Part shown: positions 50,513 through 64,000 of the stretch, piece after piece
Position numbering within the stretch: the first letter of the stretch is position 1
Layout: every line of letters begins with the position of its first letter
Source of the DNA: Basidiobolus meristosporus CBS 931.73
Taxonomy: Eukaryota > Basidiobolomycota > Basidiobolomycetes > Basidiobolales > Basidiobolaceae
DNA: 64,000 bases
Direction of reading: 5' to 3'
Assembly (NCBI GenBank): GCA_002104905.1
Contig: MCFE01000284.1
Location: forward strand, 39,220-103,219
Made by a program: the position numbers and the translations under genes
Notes under the pieces: generated by a model
Database searches by the model: none
Seen by the model: only the letters and a program-made list of their open reading frames with translations
What the model was told of the DNA's origin: nothing

Positions 50513-51621
50513 CTCCCACTCAGCTAAATGTTCATACTGACTAGTCCTAATTTTGACCTAAGATATTCAAACTTGTCTCTAGCTAATGATTTGGTAAATA
50601 TGTCTGCAATCATTTCATCAGTAGGACAGTAAACTAAGCTAACTAGGTTATTCTCTATAGCTTCACATATGAAATGATGTCTAATATCCATGTGCTTGGT
50701 TCTAGCATGAAAAGTTGGATTTCTGCCTAAGAGTATACATCCTGGATTATCTTGAAACAAAGTAATAGGCATTTTTGACATAGGCCTAAGTCTGTAAAAG
50801 GTTTTCTAAACCACATTTCTTCTTTTTTAGCTTCACAGGCTGCCATATACTCTGCTTCTGTGGTAGAAAGTGCTACGGTTGGTTGCTTTCTTGAATTCCA
50901 TGAAATTGCTCCTTGACAGTAAAGAAAGGTGTATCCTGTGGTGGATCTTCTGTCTTCTAAATTTTGTCCCCAATCTGCATCAGAGTATCCCACAAGAGCT
51001 TGTTCTGAATCCTTATAAGTGTATCTTAAGCAGATATCAGCAGTTCCTTTTAGGTATCTAAATATCTGCTTAACTGCTGCAATATGATCAGATCCATAGT
51101 TTTGATTATGTTGGCTGACAACTTCCACTGAATATGAGATATCTGGACGTGTTCCAAGCATGATATACATCCAACTGCGGACCATGGATTGATAAGGAAA
51201 GTCAGGGCTTTCAGATGGCACCAAGCTCTCTTGATTTGGTTGAGTTTTGACCAAGTTAAGGTTTGTCTCCATTGGGGTAGCTGCCGGTTTACAGTCTTCC
51301 ATTTGGTACTTCTTTAGTATATCTTGAATATACTTGGATTGACTTAGGGTGATAGTCTGGGTACTTCTGTCTATGGAGAACTTAATCCCTAAGTAGTAAC
51401 TAAGTTCTCCTAGATTGAACATCTTGAACTCCTTAGATAGGCTGGATTTAGTCTCTTCCAATGTTTCTAGGTTATTGGTGGCTATAATAAGATCATCCAT
51501 ATATAGAGCTAATAGAACTGGATTTGCTCTATCTGGCTTATAGTATATACTATAGTCAGCATTACTCCTTTTGAATCTCAAAGAATCCAAATAAGAATCT
51601 ATCTTGCAATTCCAGGCTCTC
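50164..51621 (-). mobile_element. Copia-F, 5'-truncated copia with intact RT/RNase H frame
   Basis: 3' LTR at 50164-50512 (349 bp), purine tract, then an internal region with the best-preserved copia frame here: 51590-50727 encodes RT with the intact catalytic box LALYMDDLIIA, SYYLGIKFSIDRSTQTI, SPDFPYQSM, RPDISYSVE, YSDADWGQNLEDRRSTTGYT and QPTVALSTTEAEYMAACE; a 1-base shift near 50750 leads to the C-terminal frame 50781-50524. The 5' half (gag, integrase, RT start, 5' LTR) is missing; the sequence changes at 51621 into another LTR. Confidence 0.85.
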
Positions 51622-52317
51622 TGTTGTGCATCAACATTTAAAACTTAGCCAATTTTACTTCGTTTGAAAATCTAGTACCCTAACTGATTTTCCCTAACCC
51701 AGACATAACAAATCCCAGTTACAGTTTATTTTATCCCACCTCAGAATCTATTTTTAGCTATCACACCTGATCTATTTCAAATGGTCATTACGTTATCAAC
51801 CTATCTGCCAAGCCTTCCCAGGTGATTAGTCATCTGAGATCTATCCAACCACTGTGCAGTTGCCAAGACATCAGTTGATTAATGATGTAATTTTCATTTA
51901 TCTTATGCACCTATGAACACCCATATTGATTTCAATCAATCCAGTCCCTTAGCGCTTACTAATTCAACTTGATCAGAAAAGTATAAATAAAGTTTACTGA
52001 ACCTTTTGGTTTAGTGTGTGTCTCAACGGAATTAAGATTCTGTCTCAGCAAAAATAAGAATCCAACAATTCTGTTCTAGTTTCTATCCAAGCCTAGTATA
52101 TCTAGCACCCCAAAGAACACCAAGCCTAGCCTGCCTAGCAAACAAATATCATTGTCTTTATAGCCAACCCAGCTATATCCAAGACCAATATTAGATCAGA
52201 ATCTTTCTGCTAATATTTCCGCCACTCTCTGACAATTCTAAGATTCTGCACTTAATTGTCCCTTTGGTTCAGTTAAACCATTCAAGAGCTTTATTACACT
52301 TTCTCTTGGATACAACA
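51622..52317 (+). repeat. Probable solo LTR of a third family
   Basis: 696 bp beginning TGTTGTGCATCAAC and ending GGATACAACA, so TGTTG...CAACA ends like other LTRs here, with AGTATAAATAAAG near 51979 as a promoter or poly(A) candidate. The left neighbour (copia F) and the right neighbour (LINE T5) both break exactly at its ends and no target duplication matches (CTCTC vs ATAAG). Orientation is taken from the TATA-like box. Not related in sequence to families 1 and 2. Confidence 0.5.
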
Positions 52318-53215
52318 ATAAGTGGTAGATTGCATATTTGGATGCAAAATGTAGGCCTTTGAGTCCTGATATAAAGCCATGATAAGAGCTGTAATTGAAG
52401 GTCCAGCAAAAGCTTCAAGATTTCTCCAAAGTAGGTTACGGTCAACTGCATCAAATGCACGGGTAATATCCAAGAGTACTGCTGGAAATTTGTTACAGAG
52501 TGTGTGGTCATGGCTTAGCATGACAGCCATTTCTAGCAAGACTCTAGGTATAAAACCAAACTGATTTGCTACAAACAAGCCACTAGATGAGAGTTGCAAA
52601 GCAATTAACAGTTCCAATACCTTTCTGCAAGCTGATAAGAGGGAAACAGGGCAATAGGATTCTGCCAGTTTGGCTGAGCCTCTACCTTTGTATAGAGGAA
52701 TCACCTTTGCAACCAGCCATTCCAATGGCATTTGCACATGTGAAATACACTGCAAATAGAATGGGAGCAATATATGTGCCATGGCAGCAGGTGCCAGCTT
52801 CAAGATTTCATATGTTATATTGTCATGACCTGGTGCGGTATTGTTGGGTAGCTTATGAAGAGTTGCCTCTAAAGTAGCTGCATCCAGGTTAATTGCGTGA
52901 GAGCAATCTCTTGAAGTAGCTGTATAGGGCTTGGAGCTGTATATGTCTTGCACAAAGAAAGCAGCAGCTAAAAGATTGGGACTTGGTAGATCTTTTGAAG
53001 CTGGCTGTAGAGCTTGATATATTCTTGATATGCTTCTAGTGGTGTCTGCAGCAGTCTTCAGTGGTAGAGAGTGCATTATATGATTCCAGTAGGATGCATG
53101 TTTTTGAAGATTTTGAAGTTTCACATATTTGCCTGCATCATCCAATAGCTGCTTTGGTGAGGGGTTAGGGAATTGGCAATAGCTCTGGGACAGTGCATAC
53201 ACTATGTTATGCCAC
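52318..53215 (-). mobile_element. LINE T5: truncated, diverged reverse transcriptase fragment
   Basis: Minus-strand open frame from about 53215 to the LTR junction. It matches the linker and N-terminal RT of T1 ORF2: SRIYQALQPASKDLPSP, LHKLPNNTAPGHDNITYEIL, KVIPLYKGRGSAKLAESY, LDITRAFDAVDRNLLW, AYILHPNMQSTTY. It is a distinct lineage, diverged throughout. It is 5'-truncated at a degenerate telomeric tract (TTAGGGGCTAGGGG at about 53216) and cut on the 3' side, before the catalytic box, by the LTR at 51622-52317. The frame stayed open, so decay is recent or purifying selection ended recently. Confidence 0.82.
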
Positions 53216-53225
53216 TTAGGGGCTA

Positions 53226-53269
53226 GGGGAGGGAAAGTCACCAAGGTAGGTGAAATCTTTATTTGATTT
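53226..53269 (-). repeat. Minimal 3'-end copy of element T3
   Basis: Only the last ~42 nt of T3 (AGGGAAAGTCACCAAGG then TAGGTGAAATCTTTATTTG on the plus strand), identical to 58377 onward, flanked by GGGGCTAGGGG and TTAGGGGGG. An extreme 5' truncation. Confidence 0.75.
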
Positions 53270-53330
53270 AGGGGGGAGACAGTCACCAACAGGTGAAATC
53301 TTTATTTCAGTTGAAACAAAGAAGCCAGCG

Positions 53331-56099
53331 CTACTGTTGTAGCTTTGATACAAGAGTGTGTAGCTGAGGGGAATTTGTAGGTAAGTTAATAAGAAGTGAT
53401 GATAGTTCTTCAGTGCTCAAGACACTGTTCAGTGGGAAGGGGGGTAGCATGAGAGGTAAGAATGCCTTGTGAACAACATTAATGAGGGGAATGTGATAAG
53501 GATTGATATTCATCATAAAGGGAGTGTGCTGCTGCAGATATTGCTGCCAAAGGTCTGTCAAGTACTTCAGGTAGGCCAGCTTGGGTTTTTCTGACTGCAG
53601 AATATAGTGAGCAAACTTCTTGACTTCAGGATCTCCAAGTATAGTTCTCCAGCAGGAGTCAGGTGTTGTGTGGTGTGTTCTCTTCCAGGCCTTAATCAGT
53701 GGGTTGTTGCAGTTGTGAAGTCTGAGGTATAATCTGGTTCTAAGGTAGAGAAGTCTGATCTTATAGGGCATAAACCCAAAAGCACCAAGAATAGCATGTC
53801 TGTAGGGGCATTCAGGCAAATGAGGCACCAAGGAGGTAATGCACCATACTGCAAACTTGTCAAGCTTAGTGCAGTCTCTAGAAGTAAGAGAGAGAAGTGG
53901 TAAGCCAAATTCCAGGACAGGGAAGACAAACTGCTTGAGTAGAAGGAGGCAGCTGGGAGCTGAAGTTGTAGGAGGAGTAACAGCCAGTAGCTTGTGGAGT
54001 GCCTGTCTTGCCAGGATAATTCTCTTCTTCAGGTGTGCTCCAGAGTCTAGTCCAGTAGGAAGGAAAGGAAAGCCAAGATATGTAGCAGAAACCTGAGCAG
54101 GTAGAGTGGAGTTCTCCAAGTTGATGGGAGAGCCCAAAGGTACTGTCTTTGCAATGGAAAGCTGGAGATTATTCTTCTGCAGATACTGGTGGATGGTCTG
54201 GGAGTCTTGTTGCACATTGGAGGAGGATATTCTGATGTCATCAGCAAAGAGAGTAACCAGGCAGTCAGCTGAGAGTCTTGGGAAATCATTCAGGAAGATG
54301 GCAAACAGTATAGGACCAAGCACAGAGCCTTGAACCACTCCATTAGGAACTGAGAACACAGCTGATTGCTCACTTGGGTGCAGAATTCTTGCTTGTGGAT
54401 CCAGAAACAGAGATCTGACAAGGAGGGTGAGAGAGGTACTGGAGAAGCATTGCAACTTGGACCAAAGCAGATTTCTGTCAACTGAATCAAAGGCCTTAGT
54501 AATATCAAACAGAACAGAGGGATACTTGCACTGGAGAGAGTGATCTTGGCTAAGTATGACTGCATATTCCAAGGAGAGGCCAGGAACAAAGCCAAACTGT
54601 GCAGGATGAAACTTGAGGGAGTCAGAGTAGAGCTCCTGAGCAAGCAGAAGCTCAAACACCTTTCTGCAGGTGGGCAGCAGAGATATTGGCCTGTAGGAGC
54701 TAGGATCCAGGTGCTTTCCTTTACCCTTGTACAGTGGCAGAACATTTGCAAAGGACCATTCCTCAGGAGTAGAAAGCTGGGCTGAGCATTGCTGAAACAG
54801 TGGAAGCAGAAGTGCAGACATGGCCTTGGTACTAGTCTTCAGAAGCTCATAAGAGATTGTGTCCACACCTGGAGCAGTAGAGTTGGGAAGCCTCTTGAGC
54901 ACATTATGGATTCTCCTTTGATCAAGTGCAAGTGGGATGGGCAGAGTCTTGAAGTCAGGATGAAAGCCAGGAGTTGAGTACTGCTTTGTAGAGAAGAAGA
55001 TGTTAGCCAGCTGTTCTGTTGAAGGTAACTTCCTGGAAGAGGGCCTCATTGCCCTGTAGAGTCTTGATACTGTTCTTGTTATAGAGTTGGAAGATTGCAG
55101 AGGCAAAGAACTCATAATATGATCCCAGAGCTGAGTATGCAGAGTGTGGTGAATTGCCTTGGAGTGGTGTATTGCTGTCAGGAGGAGTTTCTCTGTTTTT
55201 GGGTTAGGGAAACTCAGGTAGCTTTGTTGCAGGGCTGAAACAATGGATTCCCATTTTCTTGAGGTAACAGCAGTAGTCTTGCATGGCAGTGAGAGGGAGG
55301 CAGACACCAGAATCAGATGCTTCACAAAGAGCCAGGCATAGTTGAGATCATCTGGCAGAGAAAGTAGCAAACTGGCAAGCTTCAAGTAGTTCCCAAAGTC
55401 TTTCTTCTGATTCTTGGTAGCTTTGTGGGTGAGCACAGTAAGTTTTGGCAGCTTCTTCTTCACAACTGGTTGCATAGAAAGGGACCAGGCTGGGTGGTCA
55501 GAGGCTCTCAAGGATCCTAGCTCAGCTCCAGAGAATTGCTTAACTTCATTCACAAAGTAGAGGGCAGCAGCAGAAGGGCAGATCCAGTCAACACATCTTT
55601 TCTCAGATTGAGCACCTAGTGCTAGCAGGTGGCTTTCTCTCAGGAAGTTCAGTAGGAATGTAGACCTTGGCTTCATTCTTGCAGTCAGAGTAGTCTTGTT
55701 CTCAGGATGGGGAATGTTGAGATCTCCAAGCAAGATAACAGGTGTTGATATAGATTGTTGGTATTGCTGAACCTTCTGGCATATAACTTGCACTTCCTGA
55801 AGGGCAAGACTTGGAGGCAGATAGCAGAGCACCAGACTGATAGTTGGCAACTGGAGAGCAGCACAGTAAGGGGAGTAAAGAGGAACACAGAGCTGAGGAG
55901 TATTGATGGTAGAAGAGATGAAGCAGATAGAGGAGGTATTCTTTGTTCTAGGAGTAGAAAAGCAATATAGATTAGTCAAAAGTATAGAGGGTAGCTGGAC
56001 ATCAATCAAACACAGGAGGGAAAATCTTGAAAGAAGTCTCTCTAGAGTTGGTCTTGATGGCTGTATGCTGTTGCAGTTAAGCAACAGAACTTCAGGTAG
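53331..56099 (-). CDS. T1a ORF2: APE-type endonuclease and reverse transcriptase
   Basis: Region of about 922 residues, open from the codon after the ORF1 UGA to the stop at 53331. The N-terminal endonuclease domain begins at once with LPEVLLLNCNS (the Asn motif), then VILLGDLNIPHP (GDxN), DWICPS and ASDHPAW (SDH); the expected Glu motif appears as LLCLIDVQLP, with Asp where Glu is usual. RT domain: NSTAPGVDTISYELL, VLPLYKGKGKHLDPSSYRPI (20-residue RT block), FDITKAFDSVDRNLLW, VVQGSVLGPILFAIFLNDF and the catalytic LFADDIRIS. A thumb and C-terminal helical region follows; no CCHC knuckle or RNase H seen. There is no ATG until roughly residue 150, so it is probably made as an ORF1-ORF2 fusion by UGA readthrough. 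Confidence 0.88.
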   Translation of the reverse strand, partial: LPEVLLLNCNSIQPSRPTLERLLSRFSLLCLIDVQLPSILLTNLYCFSTPRTKNTSSICFISSTINTPQLCVPLYSPYCAALQLPTISLVLCYLPPSLALQEVQVICQKVQQYQQSISTPVILLGDLNIPHPENKTTLTARMKPRSTFLLNFLRESHLLALGAQSEKRCVDWICPSAAALYFVNEVKQFSGAELGSLRASDHPAWSLSMQPVVKKKLPKLTVLTHKATKNQKKDFGNYLKLASLLLSLPDDLNYAWLFVKHLILVSASLSLPCKTTAVTSRKWESIVSALQQSYLSFPNPKTEKLLLTAIHHSKAIHHTLHTQLWDHIMSSLPLQSSNSITRTVSRLYRAMRPSSRKLPSTEQLANIFFSTKQYSTPGFHPDFKTLPIPLALDQRRIHNVLKRLPNSTAPGVDTISYELLKTSTKAMSALLLPLFQQCSAQLSTPEEWSFANVLPLYKGKGKHLDPSSYRPISLLPTCRKVFELLLAQELYSDSLKFHPAQFGFVPGLSLEYAVILSQDHSLQCKYPSVLFDITKAFDSVDRNLLWSKLQCFSSTSLTLLVRSLFLDPQARILHPSEQSAVFSVPNGVVQGSVLGPILFAIFLNDFPRLSADCLVTLFADDIRISSSNVQQDSQTIHQYLQKNNLQLSIAKTVPLGSPINLENSTLPAQVSATYLGFPFLPTGLDSGAHLKKRIILARQALHKLLAVTPPTTSAPSCLLLLKQFVFPVLEFGLPLLSLTSRDCTKLDKFAVWCITSLVPHLPECPYRHAILGAFGFMPYKIRLLYLRTRLYLRLHNCNNPLIKAWKRTHHTTPDSCWRTILGDPEVKKFAHYILQSEKPKLAYLKYLTDLWQQYLQQHTPFMMNINPYHIPLINVVHKAFLPLMLPPFPLNSVLSTEELSSLLINLPTNSPQLHTLVSKLQQ

Positions 56100-56108
56100 T
56101 CAGGCAGA
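56094..56108 (-). promoter_or_regulatory. Candidate programmed readthrough site UGA-CUA between ORF1 and ORF2
   Basis: Minus strand reads TCT GCC TGA CTA CCT. ORF1 and ORF2 are in the same frame with only this TGA (56102-56100) between them. TGA followed by CTA is the established high-readthrough context in fungi and animals. Confidence 0.7.
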
Positions 56109-57608
56109 GGTTGTAGCTTCTTCAGAGGCAGCATTGACAATGTGACCTGCAGAGTCCCAGAGCTCTTCAAATGGTGCATCACTTAAGTCAGCAAGGAGGG
56201 AAATGGCATGATTCTTGAGGAAGTATGCCACATCATAGGAGGGGGCTTGTCTCTTGATGGCAGCAAAGAAAGACAGAATGGCAACATGGGCTGGAGGCTT
56301 GTTGAACAGTAGAGAGTCAGAGGATTCAGATTCTTCAGGCACTATCTTGAAGTCAGTTTTCAGCCAGTTAAGGTTCTTCTCCACAAAGGCAACAAATGGG
56401 TCAGCAATGTTTTGGTCTAGGATAACCTCCAGAATCTTCCCTTTTCTCCAGGCCAGGTTGACAATTCTTGAGAGCTGAATATTGCATGCCTTGAGTGCTT
56501 TCCTGATGTTGGAAATGGGAGTCCAGGGAACTTGCTTCAAGTACACCACAGTCCAGGTAGAAGCTGGTGGTAGGTTTGCTGGGGGCTTGTAAGTCCTTCT
56601 GTGTTGCAATGGAGCTGCAGTAGTCAGATTGGAGTCCACATTCTCAGTAGAAGGTTTTCTTGATGTGTCTTGCTGAATAGTACTGGAGCTGGATGTGCTG
56701 ATAATTCTTGCTAGAACCTTGCCTGCATAAGTCTGAGGTATAGCTGAGGTGACTGTAGAGGTGGTGGCAGCTGGTGCAGGTGGAGAGGCAGAGACTGAAG
56801 CAGGAACTGAGGTCACCTGGGAGAAGGCAGTAGAAGCAGGTTTTCTGGGAGGAACAGAGTTCACTATCCAGTTGTTCTGTAAAACACTGGAGTAGCTTTT
56901 CTGTGGAACAGGATCTTGCTCTTGAACAGGAACAGAAGCAGGAGGCTGGGGCTGAGCAGTAGTGGTAAGGCAGTGGCACTCCAAGGAAGCTTTTTGCAAG
57001 GCATCTCTGGCAGTTTTCAGGGCAGTATTGGCTTCATTCTTGAGCTTCTTGCATTGGGCATCCAGTCTCTTGTTTTCAATAGCCAGGGCAGTATTGGCAG
57101 CCTCTAAATCAGCAATTCTCTTCTCAATTGCAAGGAATCTCTGAAGAAATGCATCAGTAGAAGTGCTGGCATCTGGGAGAGCAGTGGCAGGAATAGAGTC
57201 CATTGACAGTGGGCTTCTTGGAGGCAAGGAAAGTGGACTGGCAGATTCAGGCACAAAAGGAGATATCCTGGCAGGAGGAGAAGGAGTATCCAAGGCAGTA
57301 ACAGAGGCAATTCTTGTTGGTGAAGCAGCAGCAGGGGAGGCAAGCCTGTTCAGAAACTGGGCAGGAGAGAGTGCTTGAGGAGAGGGAGTCTTCAGCTTGC
57401 CAAGCATGTCTTCCATCAGAGTGATACCAATATTCCTGGTGCATTTGCAGAGAAAAGTAAGCTTCCTGAGTCTGCCAGCTCTTCCATTCCTTCTGATAGT
57501 TCCTTTGTTTCCACAGTTGGGGCAAGAAATCTTCTTGACAGACTTGTCAAAGCAATCAAGAACCTTCCTTTCAGGTGTAGTGGGCTCCTGTTGAGGTTTT
57601 GGTGGCAT
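56100..57608 (-). CDS. T1a ORF1: zinc-ribbon, coiled-coil and RRM-like nucleic-acid-binding protein
   Basis: 502 residues from ATG at 57608 (MPPKPQQEPTTPERK); the upstream in-frame triplets start only with TTG. Zinc ribbon ligands C29, C32, C54, C56 (CPNCG ... CKC) with basic residues between, like transposase-type zinc ribbons. Low-complexity Ser/Pro/Ala follows, then a coiled coil at about 165-225 (RIADLEAANTALAIENKRLD), a long Pro/Ser/Thr/Gln linker, and a conserved C-terminal core (STWTVVYLKQVPWTPISNIR, KILEVILDQNIADPF) that is RRM-like. The helical C-terminus (HVAILSFFAAIK, YFLKNHAISLLADL, LWDSAG) is shared with the T3 and T4 proteins. Functions like LINE ORF1: RNA binding and RNP assembly, perhaps telomere targeting (inference). 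Confidence 0.82.
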   Translation of the reverse strand: MPPKPQQEPTTPERKVLDCFDKSVKKISCPNCGNKGTIRRNGRAGRLRKLTFLCKCTRNIGITLMEDMLGKLKTPSPQALSPAQFLNRLASPAAASPTRIASVTALDTPSPPARISPFVPESASPLSLPPRSPLSMDSIPATALPDASTSTDAFLQRFLAIEKRIADLEAANTALAIENKRLDAQCKKLKNEANTALKTARDALQKASLECHCLTTTAQPQPPASVPVQEQDPVPQKSYSSVLQNNWIVNSVPPRKPASTAFSQVTSVPASVSASPPAPAATTSTVTSAIPQTYAGKVLARIISTSSSSTIQQDTSRKPSTENVDSNLTTAAPLQHRRTYKPPANLPPASTWTVVYLKQVPWTPISNIRKALKACNIQLSRIVNLAWRKGKILEVILDQNIADPFVAFVEKNLNWLKTDFKIVPEESESSDSLLFNKPPAHVAILSFFAAIKRQAPSYDVAYFLKNHAISLLADLSDAPFEELWDSAGHIVNAASEEATTSA

Positions 57609-57833
57609 ATCCAGAGTTTCAGCTTCAAATTTCAATTTTTGAGATTTTTGGGTGATTTTTGATGGGCGGGATCAAAATTAGGGTTAGGGTTGCGCGCTGT
57701 GACTGCTTTTTACGATCGCAAGGTCAGAACCTAGGAAAAAATAAAAATAGTTAGTAAAGGTGATTTAATGGATGGATGGATGGATTGGAGTCAGATTCAA
57801 TCAAAAAATCAAATCGTTGACTAATTTAAAGAG

Positions 57834-57845
57834 GGTTAGGGGGGG
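57834..57845 (+). repeat. Internal telomeric junction tract
   Basis: GGTTAGGGGGGG between the T1a 5' end and the SINE 3' end. Similar short tracts: 58364-58375 (GGTTAGGGTTAGGGG), 59206-59217, 59975-59982, 60501-60507, 61541-61548, 61644-61651, 61747-61754 and 61811-61817. Confidence 0.8.
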
Positions 57846-58363
57846 AGGAAAGTCACCAAGTGGTGAAATCTTTATTTACTTATGACAAGTATCTAAAGAA
57901 GCCAAGTTAATCTGAAGTAATTCCTAGAAAGCTAGGTCTGAGAGATATCTTCCTGGTAAGCCAGGTCTGAGAGTTGAGAAGCTGAGTGGTACTATATTTC
58001 CTAGTTAGCTAGGTCTGAGAGAGGTTTCCTGGAAAGCCAGGCCTGAGAAGTGAGAATCTGAATATATCTGAGCTAAGTTATACTGGTTTGCGGTAGCTGA
58101 ATTGTGGCCGGAATGGCCAGTAGACTGGGGGAACTGAGATGAATTTCTGGGCGATCACTGGCCAAATTTACTAGGCAAATCTGACCAATTAGCATTTCAA
58201 GGATTTCAGCCAATCAGAGCCTTTACTTTGCCCGATGGTTGATCAAGCCATCTCCCAATGAGCACACATCAATTTATTGATCAAATTTTGCTGGATCCAG
58301 GATTTGAACCCACAACCATGGGTATGGAAGGGTTAGGGATAACCACAAGGCTAAGTGTTCTTG
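57841..58363 (-). mobile_element. tRNA-headed SINE, copy 1 (element T2)
   Basis: About 523 bp, minus-strand orientation. The 5' head has an A-box-like TTAGCCTTGTGGTTATC and, 35 nt on, a perfect RNA polymerase III B box GGTTCAAATCC (plus 58300-58310, reverse). The body contains four copies of a repeat with a small hairpin and CTGAGAG (for example CCTAGAAAGCTAGGTCTGAG). The 3' end is the LINE-type tail: AAATAAAGATTTCACC, loop ACTT, GGTGACTTTCC, then Cs against telomeric CCCTAA. No coding frame. Probably moved by T1 machinery. Confidence 0.8.
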
Positions 58364-58373
58364 GTTAGGGTTA

Positions 58374-59206
58374 GGGGAGGGAAAGTCACCAAGGTAGGTG
58401 AAATCTTTATTTGATTTCAGACAAGTCTAACTACAAATAAAGAAGCCAGCTGGGAATAGAAGATTCCCAAAGTAAACACTAAGTTGAATATGAATAAATC
58501 TAAGCTAAAGTTAAGGCAGTATCCCAGAGTACACTGGAGTTCAGGTTCATGGGGGAGTGAAGTAGATAAGCTTGAGAGATATAATAATCTTTGAGGAAGT
58601 GGGTAACAGCAGGTGAAGGGGAGTTTTTGATAAGTGAAGTGAATCTTGAGAGCAGAGATTCCTCTAATGAGAAGGTCTTGTAAACTGGAGAATCAGGAAA
58701 CTCTTTAAAGGCATGGTCAGTAGGTTCCCAGTAAAACTGGTCAGAGACATTTTGAGAGAATTGTGTTGCAATACTTTTGTCAAGTACTACCTCCAGAGTG
58801 TGATGGTTGATAAATCTCATGTTAACAATTTTGGATAAATTGTAACCTTGTTGCTTGAGATACATCCTATGCTCAGATATGGGAATAAACTCCACATTGG
58901 CAAAGTAGCAGACAGTCCAGTCAGTAGCAGGAGGTAAATCAGAATTGGCAGGAAACTTTCTTTTAGTCTTGGGAGGAGCAGCAGCATGTCTTGAGGGAGC
59001 AGGAACAGGCTTTTTGACAGCTTCAGAGTAGGAAGAGTGAGCAGGAGCAGGTGATTCTTGGGGAGTCTTGTTGACAGGAAGAGTTGGCACAGGGACAATA
59101 GATTCTTGCAGATCAGAAAAGGCAGAGAACAACTTTTGAACTTGTTTCTTGAGTAGAGCATTTTCAGCTTCAACAAGTGCAAGCCTTTCCTCAAGGAAGG
59201 AAATCT
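58374..59206 (-). mobile_element. Element T3: ORF1-only retroelement, 5'-truncated
   Basis: About 830 bp, flanked by TTAGGG tracts. The 3' tail follows the shared pattern (AATAAAGATTTCACC TACCTT GGTGACTTTCCC). It encodes an ORF1-like protein directly upstream of the tail, with no RT or endonuclease. The 5' end is cut inside the ORF1 start, at AAGGAAATCTTAGGG. Confidence 0.82.
58500..59206 (-). CDS. T3 ORF1-type protein, N-terminus missing
   Basis: About 235 residues remaining. A coiled coil starts immediately (FLEERLALVEAENALLKKQV), then a Pro/Ser/Ala linker, the RRM-like core (TDWTVCYFANVEFIPISEHR and HTLEVVLDKSIATQF) and the shared C-terminal helices (SRFTSLIKNSPSPAVTHFLK, LLHSPMNL, LWDTALTLA). 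Comparison with T4 suggests about ten residues, including the start, were lost. The zinc ribbon of T1 ORF1 is not present. Confidence 0.78.
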
Positions 59207-59216
59207 TAGGGTTAGG

Positions 59217-59975
59217 GGGGGAGACAGTCACCAACAGGTGAAATCTTTATTTCAGTTGAAACAAAGAAGCCAGCGCTACTGTTGTAGCTTTGATACAAGA
59301 GTGTGTAGCTGAGGGGAATTTGTAGGTAAGTTAATAAGAAGTGATGATAGTTCTTCAGTGCTAAACACACTGTTCAGTGGGAAGGGGGGTAGCAAGAGAG
59401 GTAAGAATGACTTGTGAACAACATTAATGAGGGGAATGTGATAAGGATTGATATTCATCATAAAGGGAGTGTGCTGCTGCAGATATTGCTGCCAAAGGTC
59501 TGTCAAGTACTTTAGGTAGGCCAGCTTGGGCTTTTCTGACTGCAGAATAAATTCAGCAAACTTCTTGACTTCAGGATCTCCAAGTATAGTTCTCCAGCAG
59601 GAGTCAGGTGTAGTGTGGTGTGTTCTCTTCCAGGCCTTAATCAGTGGGTTGTTGCAGTTGTGAAGTCTGAGGTATAATCTGGTTCTAAGGTAGAGAAGTC
59701 TGATCTTATAGGGCATAAACCCAAAAGCACCAAGAATAGCATGTCTGTAGGGCATTCAGGCAAATGAGGCACCAAGGAGGTAATGCACCATACTGCAAAC
59801 TTGTCAAGCTTAGTGCAGTCTCTAGAAGTAAGAGAGAGAAGCGTAAGCCAAATTCCAGAACAGGGAAGACAAACTGCTTGAGTAGAAGGAGGCAGCTTGG
59901 AGCTGAAGTTGTAGGAGGAGTAACAGCCAGTAGCTTGTGGAGTGCCTGTCTTGCCAGGATAATTCTCTTCTTCAG
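59217..59975 (-). mobile_element. LINE T1b, 5'-truncated copy
   Basis: About 760 bp of the T1 3' end, nearly identical to T1a, covering the 3' UTR and the C-terminal part of ORF2 up to KKRIILARQALHKLL. The ORF is broken by a 1-bp deletion near 59752 (TAGGGCATTC instead of TAGGGGCATTC) and a small deletion near 59841. The 5' break CTTCTTCAGGT runs straight into TAGGG, with GGT shared between LINE and telomeric repeat. Confidence 0.88.
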
Positions 59976-59980
59976 GTTAG

Positions 59981-60501
59981 GGAGGAAAGTCACCAAGTGG
60001 TGAAATCTTTATTTACTTATGACAAGTATCTAAAGAAGCCAAGTTAATCTGAAGTTACTCCTAGAAAGCTAGGTCTGAGAGATATCTTCCTGGTAAGCCA
60101 GGTCTGAGAGTTGAGAAGCTGAGTGGTACTATATTTCCTAGTTAGCTAGGTCTGAGAGAGGTTTCCTGGAAAGCCAGGCCTGAGAAGTGAGAATCTGAAT
60201 ATATCTGAGCTAAGTTATACTGGTTTGCGGTAGCTGAATTGTGGCCGGAATGGCCAGTAGACTGGGGGAACTGAGATGAATTTCTGGGCGATCACTGGCC
60301 AAATTTACTAGGCAAATCTGACCAATTAGCATTTCAAGGATTTCAGCCAATCAGAGCCTTTACTTTGCCCGATGGTTGATCAAGCCATCTCCCAATGAGC
60401 ACACATCAATTTATTGAACAAATTTTGCTGGATCCAGGATTTGAACCCACAACCATGAGTATGGAAGGGTTAGGGATAACCACAAGGCTAAGTGTTCTTG
60501 G
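59981..60501 (-). mobile_element. tRNA-headed SINE, copy 2 (element T2)
   Basis: Nearly identical to 57841-58363, including the B box at 60437-60447 (reverse), the four internal repeats and the shared 3' hairpin tail. One difference in the tRNA-like anticodon region (CATGAGTATGG vs CATGGGTATGG on the plus strand). Flanked by GGTTAGGG at both ends. Confidence 0.82.
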
Positions 60502-60506
60502 TTAGG

Positions 60507-61540
60507 GGGATGATAATCACCACAGGGTGAAATCTTTATTTAAATTGTAAATAAAGAAGCCAAGTTTGAATATGAATATCTGAGATAAAGTAAGCCTACA
60601 AGATAAACTTGGACTTTGCTGTATCCCAGATATCCTCAATATCAAAGTTTAGAGGAGAATGTAGCAAAACTGCTTGTTCACTGTAGTATTTCTTGAGGAA
60701 GTTTGTGACTTGAAGGGAAGGAGAGTTTTTCAACAAGCTGGTAAACCTTTTGAGGAGTTCTTTTTCCAGAGAGAATGGTACAAAGAGTGGAATGTCTAAA
60801 TGATGTCTGAATATATGCTCTGAGAGCTCCCAATCCAGCATATTTTTGACTTCCTCTGTAAAATCTTCCACAATATCTTTGTCAAGAATGACTTCCAAGA
60901 GATCCCTGGCAATGTACTGAATGTTAATAATCTTGGGCATATGAATACCTAGGTCCTTGAGGTAGTTTCTTTGTTCTGAAATTGGAAGATAGCCAGCATT
61001 TCTGAAATAGCAAACAGCCCAATTGGCAGTGGGAGGAGTATCAGGGCTGACAGGAAATCTTCTTCTGGCTTTAGGGTGCACTGGCTTAGGTGGCTGTCTT
61101 ATTGGGAGAACAGTGGACTTTGGATGAGCTTGAAGTGCTTGGGAGTATGTCTGAGTATGAATGGCAGGAGTTGCTGGTTGCTGACAGTGTTCAGATTGAC
61201 TGGAAGAAGTGCTGGTTGAGGGGTTGCAAGGTAAGGAAGTAGCTGAAAGAGAAGTAGAGAGTGCTGGGTGAAGTTCAGAGAGAGTTTTGAAAAGAACCTG
61301 GATCTGAGATTTCAACATTGAGTTTTCAGCTTCAAGAAGAGAAACTCTTTGTTCAAGGTAAGAAGTCTGTAAAGAGTGAAAGTTGGGTAAAGACATGGAA
61401 GAAGTAGATAATAAGAAGAAATGAGTAGTTGGGGTGGGAGGGAGGGAAAATAGTTAAGAAGAAAAGAGAGGAAAGATCTGAAATTGAAAATCTCAGAATT
61501 TATAGATGGATGGACAAGGGTAAAGGATAGATTAATCCAG
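60507..61540 (-). mobile_element. Element T4: intact ORF1-only retroelement
   Basis: About 1.03 kb, minus strand, with 3' tail AATAAAGATTTCACC CTGT GGTGATTATCATCC against CCCTAA, one complete ORF1-type gene, and a 5' UTR of about 145 bp that ends at GGTTAGGG (61541). The distal part of this 5' UTR is repeated further out. No RT or endonuclease; needs a helper in trans. Confidence 0.82.
60596..61396 (-). CDS. T4 ORF1-type protein (complete)
   Basis: 266 residues from the ATG at 61396 (MSLPNFHSLQTSYLEQ). A coiled coil at about 12-45 (QRVSLLEAENSMLKSQIQVL), a Ser/Thr/Gln/Pro-rich linker, then the RRM-like core (TANWAVCYFRNAGYLPISEQ, DLLEVILDKDIVEDF) and the family C-terminal helices (KRFTSLLKNSPSLQVTNFLK, LLHSPLNFDIEDIWDTAK). 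Homologous to the last ~230 residues of T1 ORF1 and to T3, without the zinc ribbon. The stop TAG is followed by GCT, not a readthrough context. Likely an RNA-binding, RNP-forming protein (inference). Confidence 0.82.
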   Translation of the reverse strand: MSLPNFHSLQTSYLEQRVSLLEAENSMLKSQIQVLFKTLSELHPALSTSLSATSLPCNPSTSTSSSQSEHCQQPATPAIHTQTYSQALQAHPKSTVLPIRQPPKPVHPKARRRFPVSPDTPPTANWAVCYFRNAGYLPISEQRNYLKDLGIHMPKIINIQYIARDLLEVILDKDIVEDFTEEVKNMLDWELSEHIFRHHLDIPLFVPFSLEKELLKRFTSLLKNSPSLQVTNFLKKYYSEQAVLLHSPLNFDIEDIWDTAKSKFIL

Positions 61541-61805
61541 GGTTAGGGAAAAATAGTTAAGAAGAAAAGAGAGGAAAGATCTGAAATTGAAAATCTCAGA
61601 ATTTATAGATGGATGGACAAGGGTAAAGGATAGATTAATCCAGGGTTAGGGAAAAATAGTTAAGAAGAAAAGAGAGGAAAGATCTGAAATTGAAAATCTC
61701 AGAATTTATAGATGGATGGACAAGGGTAAAGGATAGATTAATCCAGGGTTAGGGAAAAATAGTTAAGAAGAAAAGAGAGGGAAAAATAGTTAAGAAGAAA
61801 AGAGA
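61443..61805 (-). repeat. Tandem copies of the T4 5' UTR joined by TTAGGG
   Basis: Period 103 bp: T4's own unit 61443-61540, then units beginning with GGTTAGGG at 61541, 61644 and 61747. Units two and three are complete and nearly identical; the fourth is cut after AGAAAAGAGAGG and followed by one more fragment (61779-61805). Each unit includes GATCTGAAATTGAAAATCTC and ATAGATGGATGGAC. Confidence 0.88.
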
Positions 61806-61814
61806 GGGATTTAG

Positions 61815-63806
61815 GGGGGAGACAGTCACCAACAGGTGAAATCTTTATTTCAGTTGAAACAAAGAAGCCAGCGCTACTGTTGTAGCTTTGATACAAGAGT
61901 GTGTAGCTGAGGGGAATTAGTAGGTAAGTTAATAAGAAGTGATGATAGTTCTTCAGTGCTCAAGACACTGTTCAGTGGGAAGGGGGGTAGCAAGAGAGGT
62001 AAGAATGACTTGTGAACAACATTAATGAGGGGAATGTGATAAGGATTGATATTCATCATAAAGGGAGTGTGCTGCTGCAGATATTGCTGCCAAAGGTCTG
62101 TCAAGTACTTCAGGTAGGCCAGCTTGGGTTTTTCTGACTGCAGAATAAATTCAGCAAACTTCTTGACTTCAGGATCTCCAAGTATGGTTCTCCAGCAGGA
62201 GCCAGGTGTTGTGTGGTGTGTTCTCTTCCAGGCCTTAATCAGTGGGTTGTTGCAGTTGTGAAGTCTGAGGTATAATCTGGTTCTTAGGTAGAGAAGTCTG
62301 ATCTTATAGGGCATAAACCCAAAAGCACCAAGAATAGCATGTCTGTAGGGGCATTCAGGCAAATGAGGCACCAAGGAGGTAATGCACCATACTGCAAACT
62401 TGTCAAGCTTAGTGCAGTCTCTAGAAGTAAGAGAGAGAAGTGGTAAGCCAAATTCCAGGACAGGGAAGACAAACTGCTTGAGTAGAAGGAGGCAGCTGGG
62501 AGCTGAAGTTGTAGGAGGAGTAACAGCCAGTAGCTTGTGGAGTGCCTGTCTTGCTAGGATAATTCTCTTCTTCATGTGTGCTCCAGAGTCTAGTCCAGTA
62601 GGAAGGAAAGGAAAGCCAAGATATGTAGCAGAAACCTGAGCAGGTAGAGTGGAGTTCTCCAAGTTGATGGGAGTGCCCAAAGGTACTGTCTTTGCAATGG
62701 AAAGCTGGAGATTATTCTTCTGCAGATACTGGTGGATGGTCTGGGAGTCTTGTTGCACATTGGAGGAGGATATTCTGATGTCATCAGCAAAGAGAGTAAC
62801 CAGGCAGTCAGCTGAGAGTCTTGGGAAATCATTCAGGAAGATGGCAAACAGTATAGGACCAAGCACAGAGCCTTGAACGACTCCATTAGGAACTGAGAAC
62901 ACTGGTGATTGCTCACTTGGGTGCAGAATTCTTGCTTGTGGATCCAGAAACAGAGACCTGACAAGGAGGGTGAGAGAGGTACTGGAGAAGCATTGCAACT
63001 TGGACCAAAGCAGATTTCTGTCAACTGAATCAAAGGCCTTAGTAATATCAAACAGAACAGAGGGATACTTGCACTGGAGAGAGTGATCTTGGCTAAGTAT
63101 GACTGCATATTCCAAGGAGAGGCCAGGAACAAAGCCAAACTGTGCAGGATGAAACTTGAGGGAGTCAGAGTAGAGCTCCTGAGCAAGCAGAAGCTCAAAC
63201 ACCTTTCTGCAGGTGGGCAGCAGAGATATTGGTCTGTAGGAGCTAGGATCCAGGTGCTTTCCTTTACCCTTGTACAGTGGCAGAACATTTGCAAAGGACC
63301 ATTCCTCAGGAGTAGAAAGCTGGGCTGAGCATTGCTGAAACAGTGGAAGCAGAAGTGCAGACATGGCCTTGGTACTAGTCTTCAGAAGCTCATAGGAGAT
63401 TGTGTCCACACCTGGAGCAGTAGAGTTGGGAAGCCTCTTGAGCACATTATGGATTCTCCCTTGATCAAGTGCAAGTGGGATGGGCAGAGTCTTGAAGTCA
63501 GGATGAAAGCCAGGAGTTGAGTACTGCTTTGTAGAGAAGAAGATGTTAGCCAGCTGTTCTGTTGAAGGTAACTTCCTGGAAGAGGGCCTCATTGCCCTGT
63601 AGAGTCTTGATACTGTTCTTGTTATAGAGTTGGAAGATTGCAGAGGCAAGGAACTCATAATATGATCCCAGAGCTGAGTATGCAGAGTGTGGTGAATTGC
63701 CTTGGAGTGGTGTATTGCTGTCAGGAGGAGTTTCTCTGTTTTTGGGTTAGGGAAACTCAGGTAGCTTTGTTGCAGGGCTGAAACAATGGATTCCCATTTT
63801 CTTGAG
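61815..63806 (-). mobile_element. LINE T1c, 5'-truncated copy capped by the telomere
   Basis: About 2.0 kb of T1, near-identical to T1a. It covers the 3' UTR and the RT half of ORF2 with an open frame throughout. The 5' break TTTTCTTGAGG passes directly into GTTAGGGTAGGG and the terminal telomere, so this is the outermost element of the chromosome. Confidence 0.9.
61874..63806 (-). CDS. T1c ORF2, partial (RT domain, no endonuclease)
   Basis: Open frame from the broken 5' end to the stop at 61874; no start codon belongs to it (internal ATG at 63658). Contains NSTAPGVDTISYELL, the KGKGKHLDPSSYRPI block, FDITKAFDSVDRNLLW, VVQGSVLGPILFAIFLNDF and catalytic LFADDIRIS, all intact. Differences from T1a are few (for example DQGRIHN vs DQRRIHN, QSPVFSV vs QSAVFSV). 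Confidence 0.85.
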
Positions 63807-64000
63807 GGTTAGGGTAGGGTTAGGGTTAGGGTTAGGGTTAGGGTTAGGGTTAGGGTTAGGGTTAGGGTTAGGGTTAGGGTTAGGGTTAGGGTTAGGGTTA
63901 GGGTTAGGGTTAGGGTTAGGGTTAGGGTTAGGGTTAGGGTTAGGGTTAGGGTTAGGGTTAGGGTTAGGGTTAGGGTTAGGGTTAGGGTTAGGGTTAGGGT
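63807..64000 (+). repeat. Terminal telomere (TTAGGG)n
   Basis: About 32 repeats of TTAGGG, perfect except for one TAGGG unit near the inner edge (63811-63820). The G-rich strand runs 5' to 3' toward the end of the window, as at a right chromosome end. The sequence stops within the array. Confidence 0.99.

Follow-up and report, generated by a model that had tools for sequence, protein, structure and literature searches.

Why does one contig end of the early-diverging fungus Basidiobolus meristosporus CBS 931.73 carry retroelement after retroelement, all on one strand and nearly all set apart by a few bases of telomeric repeat, and how could such an array have been built? The locus is the last 64,000 nucleotides of contig MCFE01000284.1 (the window; C518:39220-103219 in our numbering of an assembly of 89,006,234 bases and 1311 contigs), and as this contig measures 103,219 bases, the window telomere coincides with its end. 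The outermost part of the window (52318-64000, in window coordinates) holds T1, a long interspersed nuclear element (LINE) with an apurinic/apyrimidinic endonuclease (APE)-type enzyme, two elements with only a first open reading frame (ORF1), T3 and T4, tRNA-headed short interspersed nuclear elements (SINEs), and a fragment of another LINE, T5, all with their 5' ends pointing outward. We consider it probable that these are members of a telomere-targeted community of retroelements without long terminal repeats (non-LTR), settled on the TTAGGG ends of a fungus that encodes telomerase, in which a LINE reverse transcriptase would copy RNAs with a shared tail and telomerase would cap the product.

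Read from its inner edge outward, with every element on the minus strand, the array starts with T5 (52318-53216), a piece of the reverse transcriptase (RT) part of a second open reading frame (ORF2) that is truncated at both ends and whose 5' end adjoins degenerate telomeric sequence. It is followed by a T3-type 3' tail alone (mini-T3, 53226-53267, 98% identical over 50 nt to the 3' end of T3) and by T1a (53274-57677), a full-length APE-type LINE from 3' tail to 5' untranslated region (5'UTR), as delimited by domains, tail motif and BLASTN. Then come SINE1 (57842-58364), the 5'-truncated ORF1-only element T3 (58377-59205), the 3' end of a 5'-truncated T1 (T1b, 59218-59976), SINE2 (59983-60501), T4 (60508-61809) and, outermost, a 5'-truncated T1 (T1c, 61817-63804); by BLASTN, T1b and T1c are 98% and 99% identical to T1a, and SINE2 is 97% identical to SINE1. 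The plus-strand terminal telomere, (TTAGGG)n, occupies 63805-64000 and runs to base 64000, the end of the contig. The sequence-only reading of this DNA had counted ten units separated by 6-20 nt of TTAGGG. The head-to-tail array and its short TTAGGG joints stand, with a count of nine insertions, eight of them with tails, and spacers of about 6-14 nt, that between T5 and mini-T3 being degenerate (TTAGGGGCTAGGGG). Two of the ten units changed character: what had been taken as a separate insertion of T4 5'UTR repeats is rather a set of tandem 103-bp monomers in the 5'UTR of T4 itself, and T5, listed as a unit with a 3' end, is an RT fragment whose 3' end is absent from the window. Between 52318 and 63804, TTAGGG occurs 21 times and CCCTAA not once (mean 5.0 and maximum 12 TTAGGG in 300 shuffles), against 11 and 13 occurrences in the window interior outside the array. 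A BLASTN comparison of the array with positions 1-52300 gave only short chance matches and no interior copy.

The truncation points of T5 (53216) and T1c (63804) fall within a few bases of one place in the RT frame, just before KWE/KWH, which may be chance or a preferred stop. Between T1a and SINE1 lie a 14-nt plus-strand telomeric block, TTAGGGTTAGGGTT (57678-57691), within the T1a 5'UTR or at its margin, and a minus-strand, 5'UTR-like segment (57692-57831) whose assignment, made by reading the sequence, is uncertain. In the sense direction this segment has TACTAAC and, behind it, a stretch of pyrimidines and CCTAG, resembling a branch point and a 3' splice site.

The members of the array have their RNA 3' ends in common. 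The tail motif GGTGAAATCTTTATTT (plus strand) occurs eight times, at 53249, 53292, 57862, 58397, 59237, 59999, 60526 and 61835, and a search of both window strands gave no further exact copy. In T1a, T1b, T1c, SINE1, SINE2, T3 and T4, the RNA 3' end takes one common fold: two hairpins with some two bases between them, and then a C-run that adjoins CCCTAA. These seven tails are more stable than shuffled sequence (z -2.7 to -4.3; 0-5 of 500 shuffles equally stable). The tail of T2, a second LINE family described below, folds likewise into two hairpins (by fold only); its hairpin I is CUUUAUUUG/CAAAUAAAG and its end, CUUUCCCUCCCC, is that of T3. Tails with a T2-type hairpin I number 37 + 328 in the assembly. 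Hairpin I is closed by C-G in T1, by G-C in T2 and T3 and by A-U in T4, and the SINE pairs its inner stem differently. We assigned 148 distinct tails to T1 (50), SINE (50), T4 (32), T3 (7) and T2 (6), with two standing alone and one unassigned; the seven tails with an AACTT loop comprise six of T2 and one tail alone. The ORF1-only elements and the SINE, proposed earlier as partners of a LINE, do have its 3' tail in common with it, in reads as in folds. Because the tail is shared, T3, T4 and the SINE would use the LINE enzyme in trans.

Is the arrangement peculiar to this contig end? A search of the assembly with the tail pattern AAATAAAGATTTCACCN{4,6}GGTGA returned 134 + 1489 = 1623 matches, compared with 0 for the reversed pattern. 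CCCTAA lies 5-20 nt downstream in 86 of the 97 distinct tails listed (rows up to contig C90), and 139 of 150 tails in 60 extracted loci (L001-L060, some of which overlap) have TTAGGG within 60 nt. In these loci the interstitial tracts have a median length of just 9 nt (quartiles 7 and 12, longest 44). Of the 19 loci that reach the right contig end, 12 finish in a telomere, which measures some 120-234 nt, and in the other 7 the contig breaks off within an element. Genome searches scored 50 of 1387 first-look candidates for T1, 144 of 543 in a second search, 40 of 419 for the SINE and 129 of 615 for the T5-fragment query; copy counts are therefore lower bounds.

Polarity was assessed on contigs of known length, which covered 32 of 50 T1 rows and 48 of 145 T4/T3 rows. 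On those of at least 40 kb, 26 of 27 T1 rows and all 42 T4/T3 rows lie within 20 kb of the nearer contig end and have their 5' ends turned toward it. One T1 row and one T4 row (C45) face the farther end, both on shorter contigs, for which the distinction between nearer and farther end carries little weight. One contig offers an internal comparison: in C424 (312,558 bases), SINEs at 141-1191 lie on the plus strand behind a CCCTAA terminus and those at 311080-312351 on the minus strand, so that with 5' ends outward at both ends and on opposite strands, orientation follows the end. Long TTAGGG runs are nearly all on the plus contig strand (5144 overlapping 60-mers versus 56 on the opposite strand), an odd trait of the contig layout, and T4/T3 rows are on the minus strand in 133 of 145 cases; given these two biases, contig strand stands in for orientation to the telomere. 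Tails are skewed 1489:134, whereas copia-like sequences, taken as a control, are 81 minus and 55 plus (best 136 of 5633; Fisher P 1e-21). Among the contigs C1-C90 with long TTAGGG in the matches listed for the one repeat phase searched, an incomplete set, 9 of 11 carry a tail (hand count). The copies examined assembly-wide bear out telomere residence, fixed orientation and TTAGGG junctions, and the opposite picture, of elements mostly at interior, non-TTAGGG sites or in random orientation, was sought there and not found. The genome also encodes a telomerase RNA-binding domain of TERT, above the Pfam cut-off, in agreement with the earlier description of a telomerase-maintained genome.

What do the ORF1-only elements encode? 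The ORF1 of T4 (60596-61396, minus strand, 266 aa) is predicted to form a coiled coil, an RRM-like domain and a helical C-terminal domain. Foldseek returned no match to this model at E <= 0.001, and VIA-align rows concerned chiefly its RRM-like part, with L1 ORF1p not among them, so that these comparisons assign no fold to the helical C-terminal domain. T4 ORF1 is 43% identical to T3 ORF1 (58500-59205 in the window, with open relatives elsewhere in the genome) and 30% identical, over 155 residues, to the C-terminal region of T1 ORF1. All three relatives found in a protein search are from Basidiobolus ranarum, among them a protein of 269 aa that is 60% identical over 99%. T3 seems to be the ORF1-only partner of T2, because the T2 tail has the CUUUCCCUCCCC end of T3. 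Upstream of its ORF1, T4 carries the 103-bp 5'UTR monomers (61443-61780) plus two 27-bp part-monomers. Elsewhere, one to six monomer starts are present in 23 of 30 T4 loci (L031-L060, of which some overlap or include part of a second T4), and the motif was not found in the remaining 7. The monomers, in the window (61443-61809) as in these loci, are joined at CCCT and could be a promoter array.

The SINE has no coding capacity. By the usual consensus of RNA polymerase III (Pol III) boxes, it carries box A, TAGCCTTGTGG, at position 12, off the consensus at one base, and box B, GGTTCAAATCC, at 55 without a mismatch; box B is likewise present in SINE2. Its sense strand lacks TTTT. ARAGORN found no tRNA in it, and Rfam no tRNA and only two sub-threshold microRNA matches. 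With Pol III boxes near the 5' end and a 3' tail in common with a LINE, it qualifies as a tRNA-type SINE. A telomere-complementary 9-mer, CCCTAACCC (sense), lies in the tRNA-like head between box A and box B of both window copies (58330-58338 and 60467-60475).

Which element supplies the enzyme? T1 ORF2 (53331-56099, minus strand) encodes a putative APE-type endonuclease and a reverse transcriptase. The latter is matched by RVT_1 at E 2.6e-25, above the cut-off, and retains the ADD of the LINE RT motif FADD, and the N-terminus is matched by Exo_endo_phos_2 at E 3.1e-4, under the curated cut-off. The reading frame has no internal stop in 46 of 50 scored copies, the other 4 having one. Its close relatives (P0001-P0005) are 48-80% identical. 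T1 ORF1 (56100-57608, minus strand; start MPPKPQQ, as relatives suggest) combines a zinc-ribbon-like CxxC/CxC motif and a coiled coil with the C-terminal region homologous to T4 ORF1. A protein search gave seven ORF1 relatives, one of them from Basidiobolus ranarum; the C-terminus is complete in six (all except P0092), and five of those end in -SA/-TA like T1. The enzyme source is not one LINE, as had been supposed, because a second family, T2, is present with a T3-type tail. T2 has an open ORF2 of 949 aa in 9 of the 129 scored rows of the T5-fragment search, and one copy (L061) is 46% identical in ORF2 to T1 and 64% to P0005. T5, matched by RVT_1 at E 1.4e-6, just short of the curated cut-off, and 47% identical to T1 ORF2 over 301 aa, is by these comparisons a third, sparse LINE lineage, with 6 rows at 87-100% among those scored genome-wide, the window copy included. 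The pN/pS ratios of 0.32 (T1a-T1c) and 0.54 (T1a-T1b) are a weak signal, and for T1-T5 and T3-T4 synonymous sites are at or near saturation, so that dN/dS carries no firm claim of selection. Profile scans of viral contigs and genome contigs with the ORF2 alignment gave no relative, and a structure model of ORF2 was set aside for its low quality (mean pLDDT 46.6).

How would these parts work together? In the mechanism that we favour, T1 and T2 would supply the enzyme, with its APE-type endonuclease and reverse transcriptase, and T3, T4 and the Pol III-type SINE, which lack it, would serve as templates through the two-hairpin, C-ended tail. The CCC(UAA) end of the RNA would pair with the 3' end of the TTAGGG G-strand at a telomere eroded to a remnant of one or two repeats, cDNA synthesis would proceed outward, and telomerase would cap the new end, to which the next element would be joined after a few repeats. 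A C-rich RNA end at CCCTAA, cDNA on the G-strand, 5' truncations and TTAGGG right at the 5' end fit G-strand-primed reverse transcription followed by telomere addition, and the very short interstitial tracts suggest addition to repeat-poor telomeres or a nick near their inner edge.

The second of these options, a nick, is the strongest alternative; we regard it as possible, at rather less than even likelihood. In such a SART/TRAS-like scheme, the APE enzyme would always nick the telomeric repeats at one position close to the telomere's inner edge and prime there, the distal telomere being lost or rejoined. The T1 endonuclease keeps N, Y, D, N, D, D and H at the positions that presumably serve catalysis, that is, most of its conserved residues; the conserved catalytic E is D. 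This departure speaks against nicking, as the column holds E in 63 of 68 ungapped sequences among 86 matches (with 3 D, 1 Q and 1 K) and D in T1, in T2 (LIDVKL, by eye), in P0001 and in P0003. A reading of the T1 endonuclease as dead was dropped, the E-to-D change being its sole departure and found in relatives too. SART and TRAS themselves, as described in PMC4700185, are LINEs of the APE type with two ORFs and cleave telomeric repeats. Nicking at random along the tract fits poorly, because the interstitial tracts are far shorter than the terminal telomeres (maximum 44 nt versus about 120-234 nt), and within TTAGGG, a repeat that hides the cut site, a target-site duplication cannot be made out.

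Alternatively, the arrays might grow chiefly by recombination, with breaks at interstitial TTAGGG repaired by copying other arrays and retrotransposition rare or past. MoTeR arrays are described as expanding by break-induced copying (PMC7367193), and the tandem 103-bp T4 monomers and series of SINEs spaced 3-11 nt from one another (C96) have the look of such events. Against this stand the five families in varied order with tracts of varied length, the T1 copies that are 5'-truncated behind a constant 3' tail, as reverse transcription predicts, and the stop-free ORF2 of most scored copies. We judge recombination as the chief force unlikely.

If T1 and T2 are the source of the enzyme, how is it translated? 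ORF1 of T1 ends in TGA (56100-56102), followed by CTA (TGA CTA at 56097-56102, minus strand), and ORF2 continues in the same frame. Walking back from the ORF2 start to the nearest stop gave TGA CTACCT in 30 of 30 T1 loci, and TGA CTAC is present in all 27 distinct junctions, 25 of T1 and 2 of T2, families that are only 46% identical in ORF2 and that differ in the bases 3' of CTAC. TGACTA makes up 30 of the 6418 stop hexamers of the window. Judging from this context, ribosomes most likely read through UGA CUA now and then, so that the polymerase of T1 and T2 would arise as a rare ORF1-ORF2 fusion. Such a read-through context is already known in fungi: in Ustilago maydis, UGA with CU(A) behind it is reported to suffice (PMC4207609). 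Production of ORF2 by re-initiation or frame-independent entry has precedents in the UAAUG stop-restart of SART1 and in the re-initiation proposed for L1 (PMC5972666). It is improbable here, the first AUG of ORF2 being codon 142 in T1 and 59 in T2, which leaves the first 141 and 58 codons without one, and the same frame and UGA CUA being found in both families. The modes of LINE ORF2 expression treated in PMC5972666 are restart and StopGo, and a narrow literature search turned up no case of UGA CUA read-through as a LINE polymerase strategy.

That these are instead ordinary LINEs with no choice of target, surviving best in gene-poor subtelomeres, is hardly credible: subtelomeres do gather many elements and a copia-like frame (named by eye) adjoins the array, yet survival alone cannot explain the constant polarity, the 139 of 150 TTAGGG 3' junctions or a strand bias of 1489:134 versus 81:55.

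Several observations weigh against the telomere-targeted community as we propose it. In 11 of the 97 tails listed there is no CCCTAA at 5-20 nt, and in 11 of 150 no TTAGGG within 60 nt. Two contigs with long TTAGGG, C35 (with its tract on the other strand) and C81, have no exact tail. The contigs of known length on which polarity was counted are those of the best matches and not a random sample. Tandem repeats such as the T4 monomers and closely spaced SINEs may arise without new insertion, and the endonuclease residues that T1 has kept leave room for a SART/TRAS-like nick inside the telomere. The conserved two-hairpin structure is drawn from few independent families and is, on this comparison of sequences, support and not proof. 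Likewise, T1 copies are near-identical and hence not independent, so that for UGA CUA the one independent comparison is that of T1 with T2. Finally, the sole T1 exception, in C726, is interior and faces away from the nearer end; this array looks like an internalised relic. The T1 of that locus (L024, C726:54971-60721) is 5'-truncated, carries tails and is flanked on the 5' side by coding sequence that, by eye, is copia-like.

Does this organisation have a counterpart elsewhere? The 5' ends of the HeT-A, TART and TAHRE elements of flies point outward. As in those elements, arrays sit at chromosome ends and ORF1-only members (T3, T4) stand beside RT-coding ones (T1, T2); HeT-A has only ORF1 and relies on the RT of another element, in Drosophila, which has no telomerase (PMC4700185). 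Unlike in flies, telomerase and simple repeats are not replaced here, as TTAGGG and the TERT domain attest, the array includes a SINE, and T4 ORF1 is modelled with a coiled coil and an RRM-like domain. By analogy, the polarity and short tracts agree with a HeT-A/TART-like insertion at the 3' OH of a chromosome end.

A fungal parallel is offered by MoTeR1 and MoTeR2 of Pyricularia (Magnaporthe) oryzae, which also lie in fungal TTAGGG with 5' ends outward and head to tail. The (TTAGGG)n between them ranges from half a repeat to over 20 repeats, and the non-autonomous MoTeR2 shares ends, including 3' sequence, with MoTeR1 (PMC7367193). By contrast, MoTeR1 has a putative restriction-like endonuclease and MoTeR2 no obvious function (PMC7367193), whereas the present system has two-ORF APE-type LINEs, ORF1-only elements, a SINE and spacers of median 9 nt. 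The Pfam matches of T1 include no restriction-like endonuclease, and its two ORFs and N-terminal APE-like domain place it outside the MoTeR/FoTeR/Cnl1 type, which has a single ORF with the restriction-like endonuclease downstream of the RT. FoTeR of Fusarium oxysporum and Cnl1 of Cryptococcus neoformans are similar in telomeric location and differ in being restriction-like-endonuclease or R2-related elements (PMC12857005, PMC12810828). FoTeR is described with its 5' end outward and 5'-biased tandem repeats, its 3' tracts being 3.0-7.0 repeats long (PMC12857005), longer than the median here. The system thus works like HeT-A/TART and MoTeR and is a member of neither, the likeness being one of organisation. 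The suggestion that no described fungal system has this full division of labour holds in the literature searched: MoTeR has a non-autonomous partner, and the whole words 'SINE' and 'ORF1' are absent from the main text of PMC7367193. A search of titles and abstract starts gave no Basidiobolus telomere element and no telomere-specific SINE, and among Basidiobolus-related texts 'telomer' does not occur in PMC10386755, nor 'telomer' or 'retrotransposon' in PMC7466969.

Two further comparisons concern mechanism. SART and TRAS belong to the R1 clade by RT phylogeny. SART1 and TRAS1 of Bombyx mori are similar to T1 in having an APE endonuclease (a putative one in T1), two ORFs, telomeric repeats as their site and, there, a need for the 3'UTR; the account in PMC4700185 reports only full-length telomeric copies and describes no ORF1-only or SINE partner. 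SART1 also differs in translating ORF2 by its UAAUG restart (PMC5972666). The other comparison is with LINEs that are strict about their template. In stringent-type LINE/SINE pairs, the 3' tail is common to SINE and LINE. In the stringent-type LINEs of zebrafish, the 3' tail is recognised by the LINE protein (PMC4176376); those elements are not telomere-directed.

New in the present system are the second LINE T2, the two-hairpin tail in all five families read and the split of ORF1 and ORF2, in one frame, by UGA CUA. Whether chromosome ends are kept here by telomerase together with LINE-driven extension of worn telomeres, with labour divided among two enzyme-coding LINEs, ORF1-only elements conserved across species and a telomere-specific SINE, one shared tail and UGA CUA read-through, in convergence with HeT-A/TART, is in our view evenly poised. 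The system would allow the rivalry of telomerase with telomere-adding retroelements to be followed on shared chromosome ends, which flies, having lost telomerase, do not permit. The open ORF1-only elements, with a relative 60% identical in Basidiobolus ranarum, suggest that loss of the enzyme with retention of ORF1, as in HeT-A, has recurred. A telomere-resident SINE would moreover offer a simple assay for the RNA features that send a template to the chromosome end.

Just inside the array, a copia-like RT/RNase H frame (named by eye, with 5633 first-look candidates genome-wide) occupies 50727-51590, and beside it, at 51692-51700, lies a further copy of CCCTAACCC, in the C-strand orientation.

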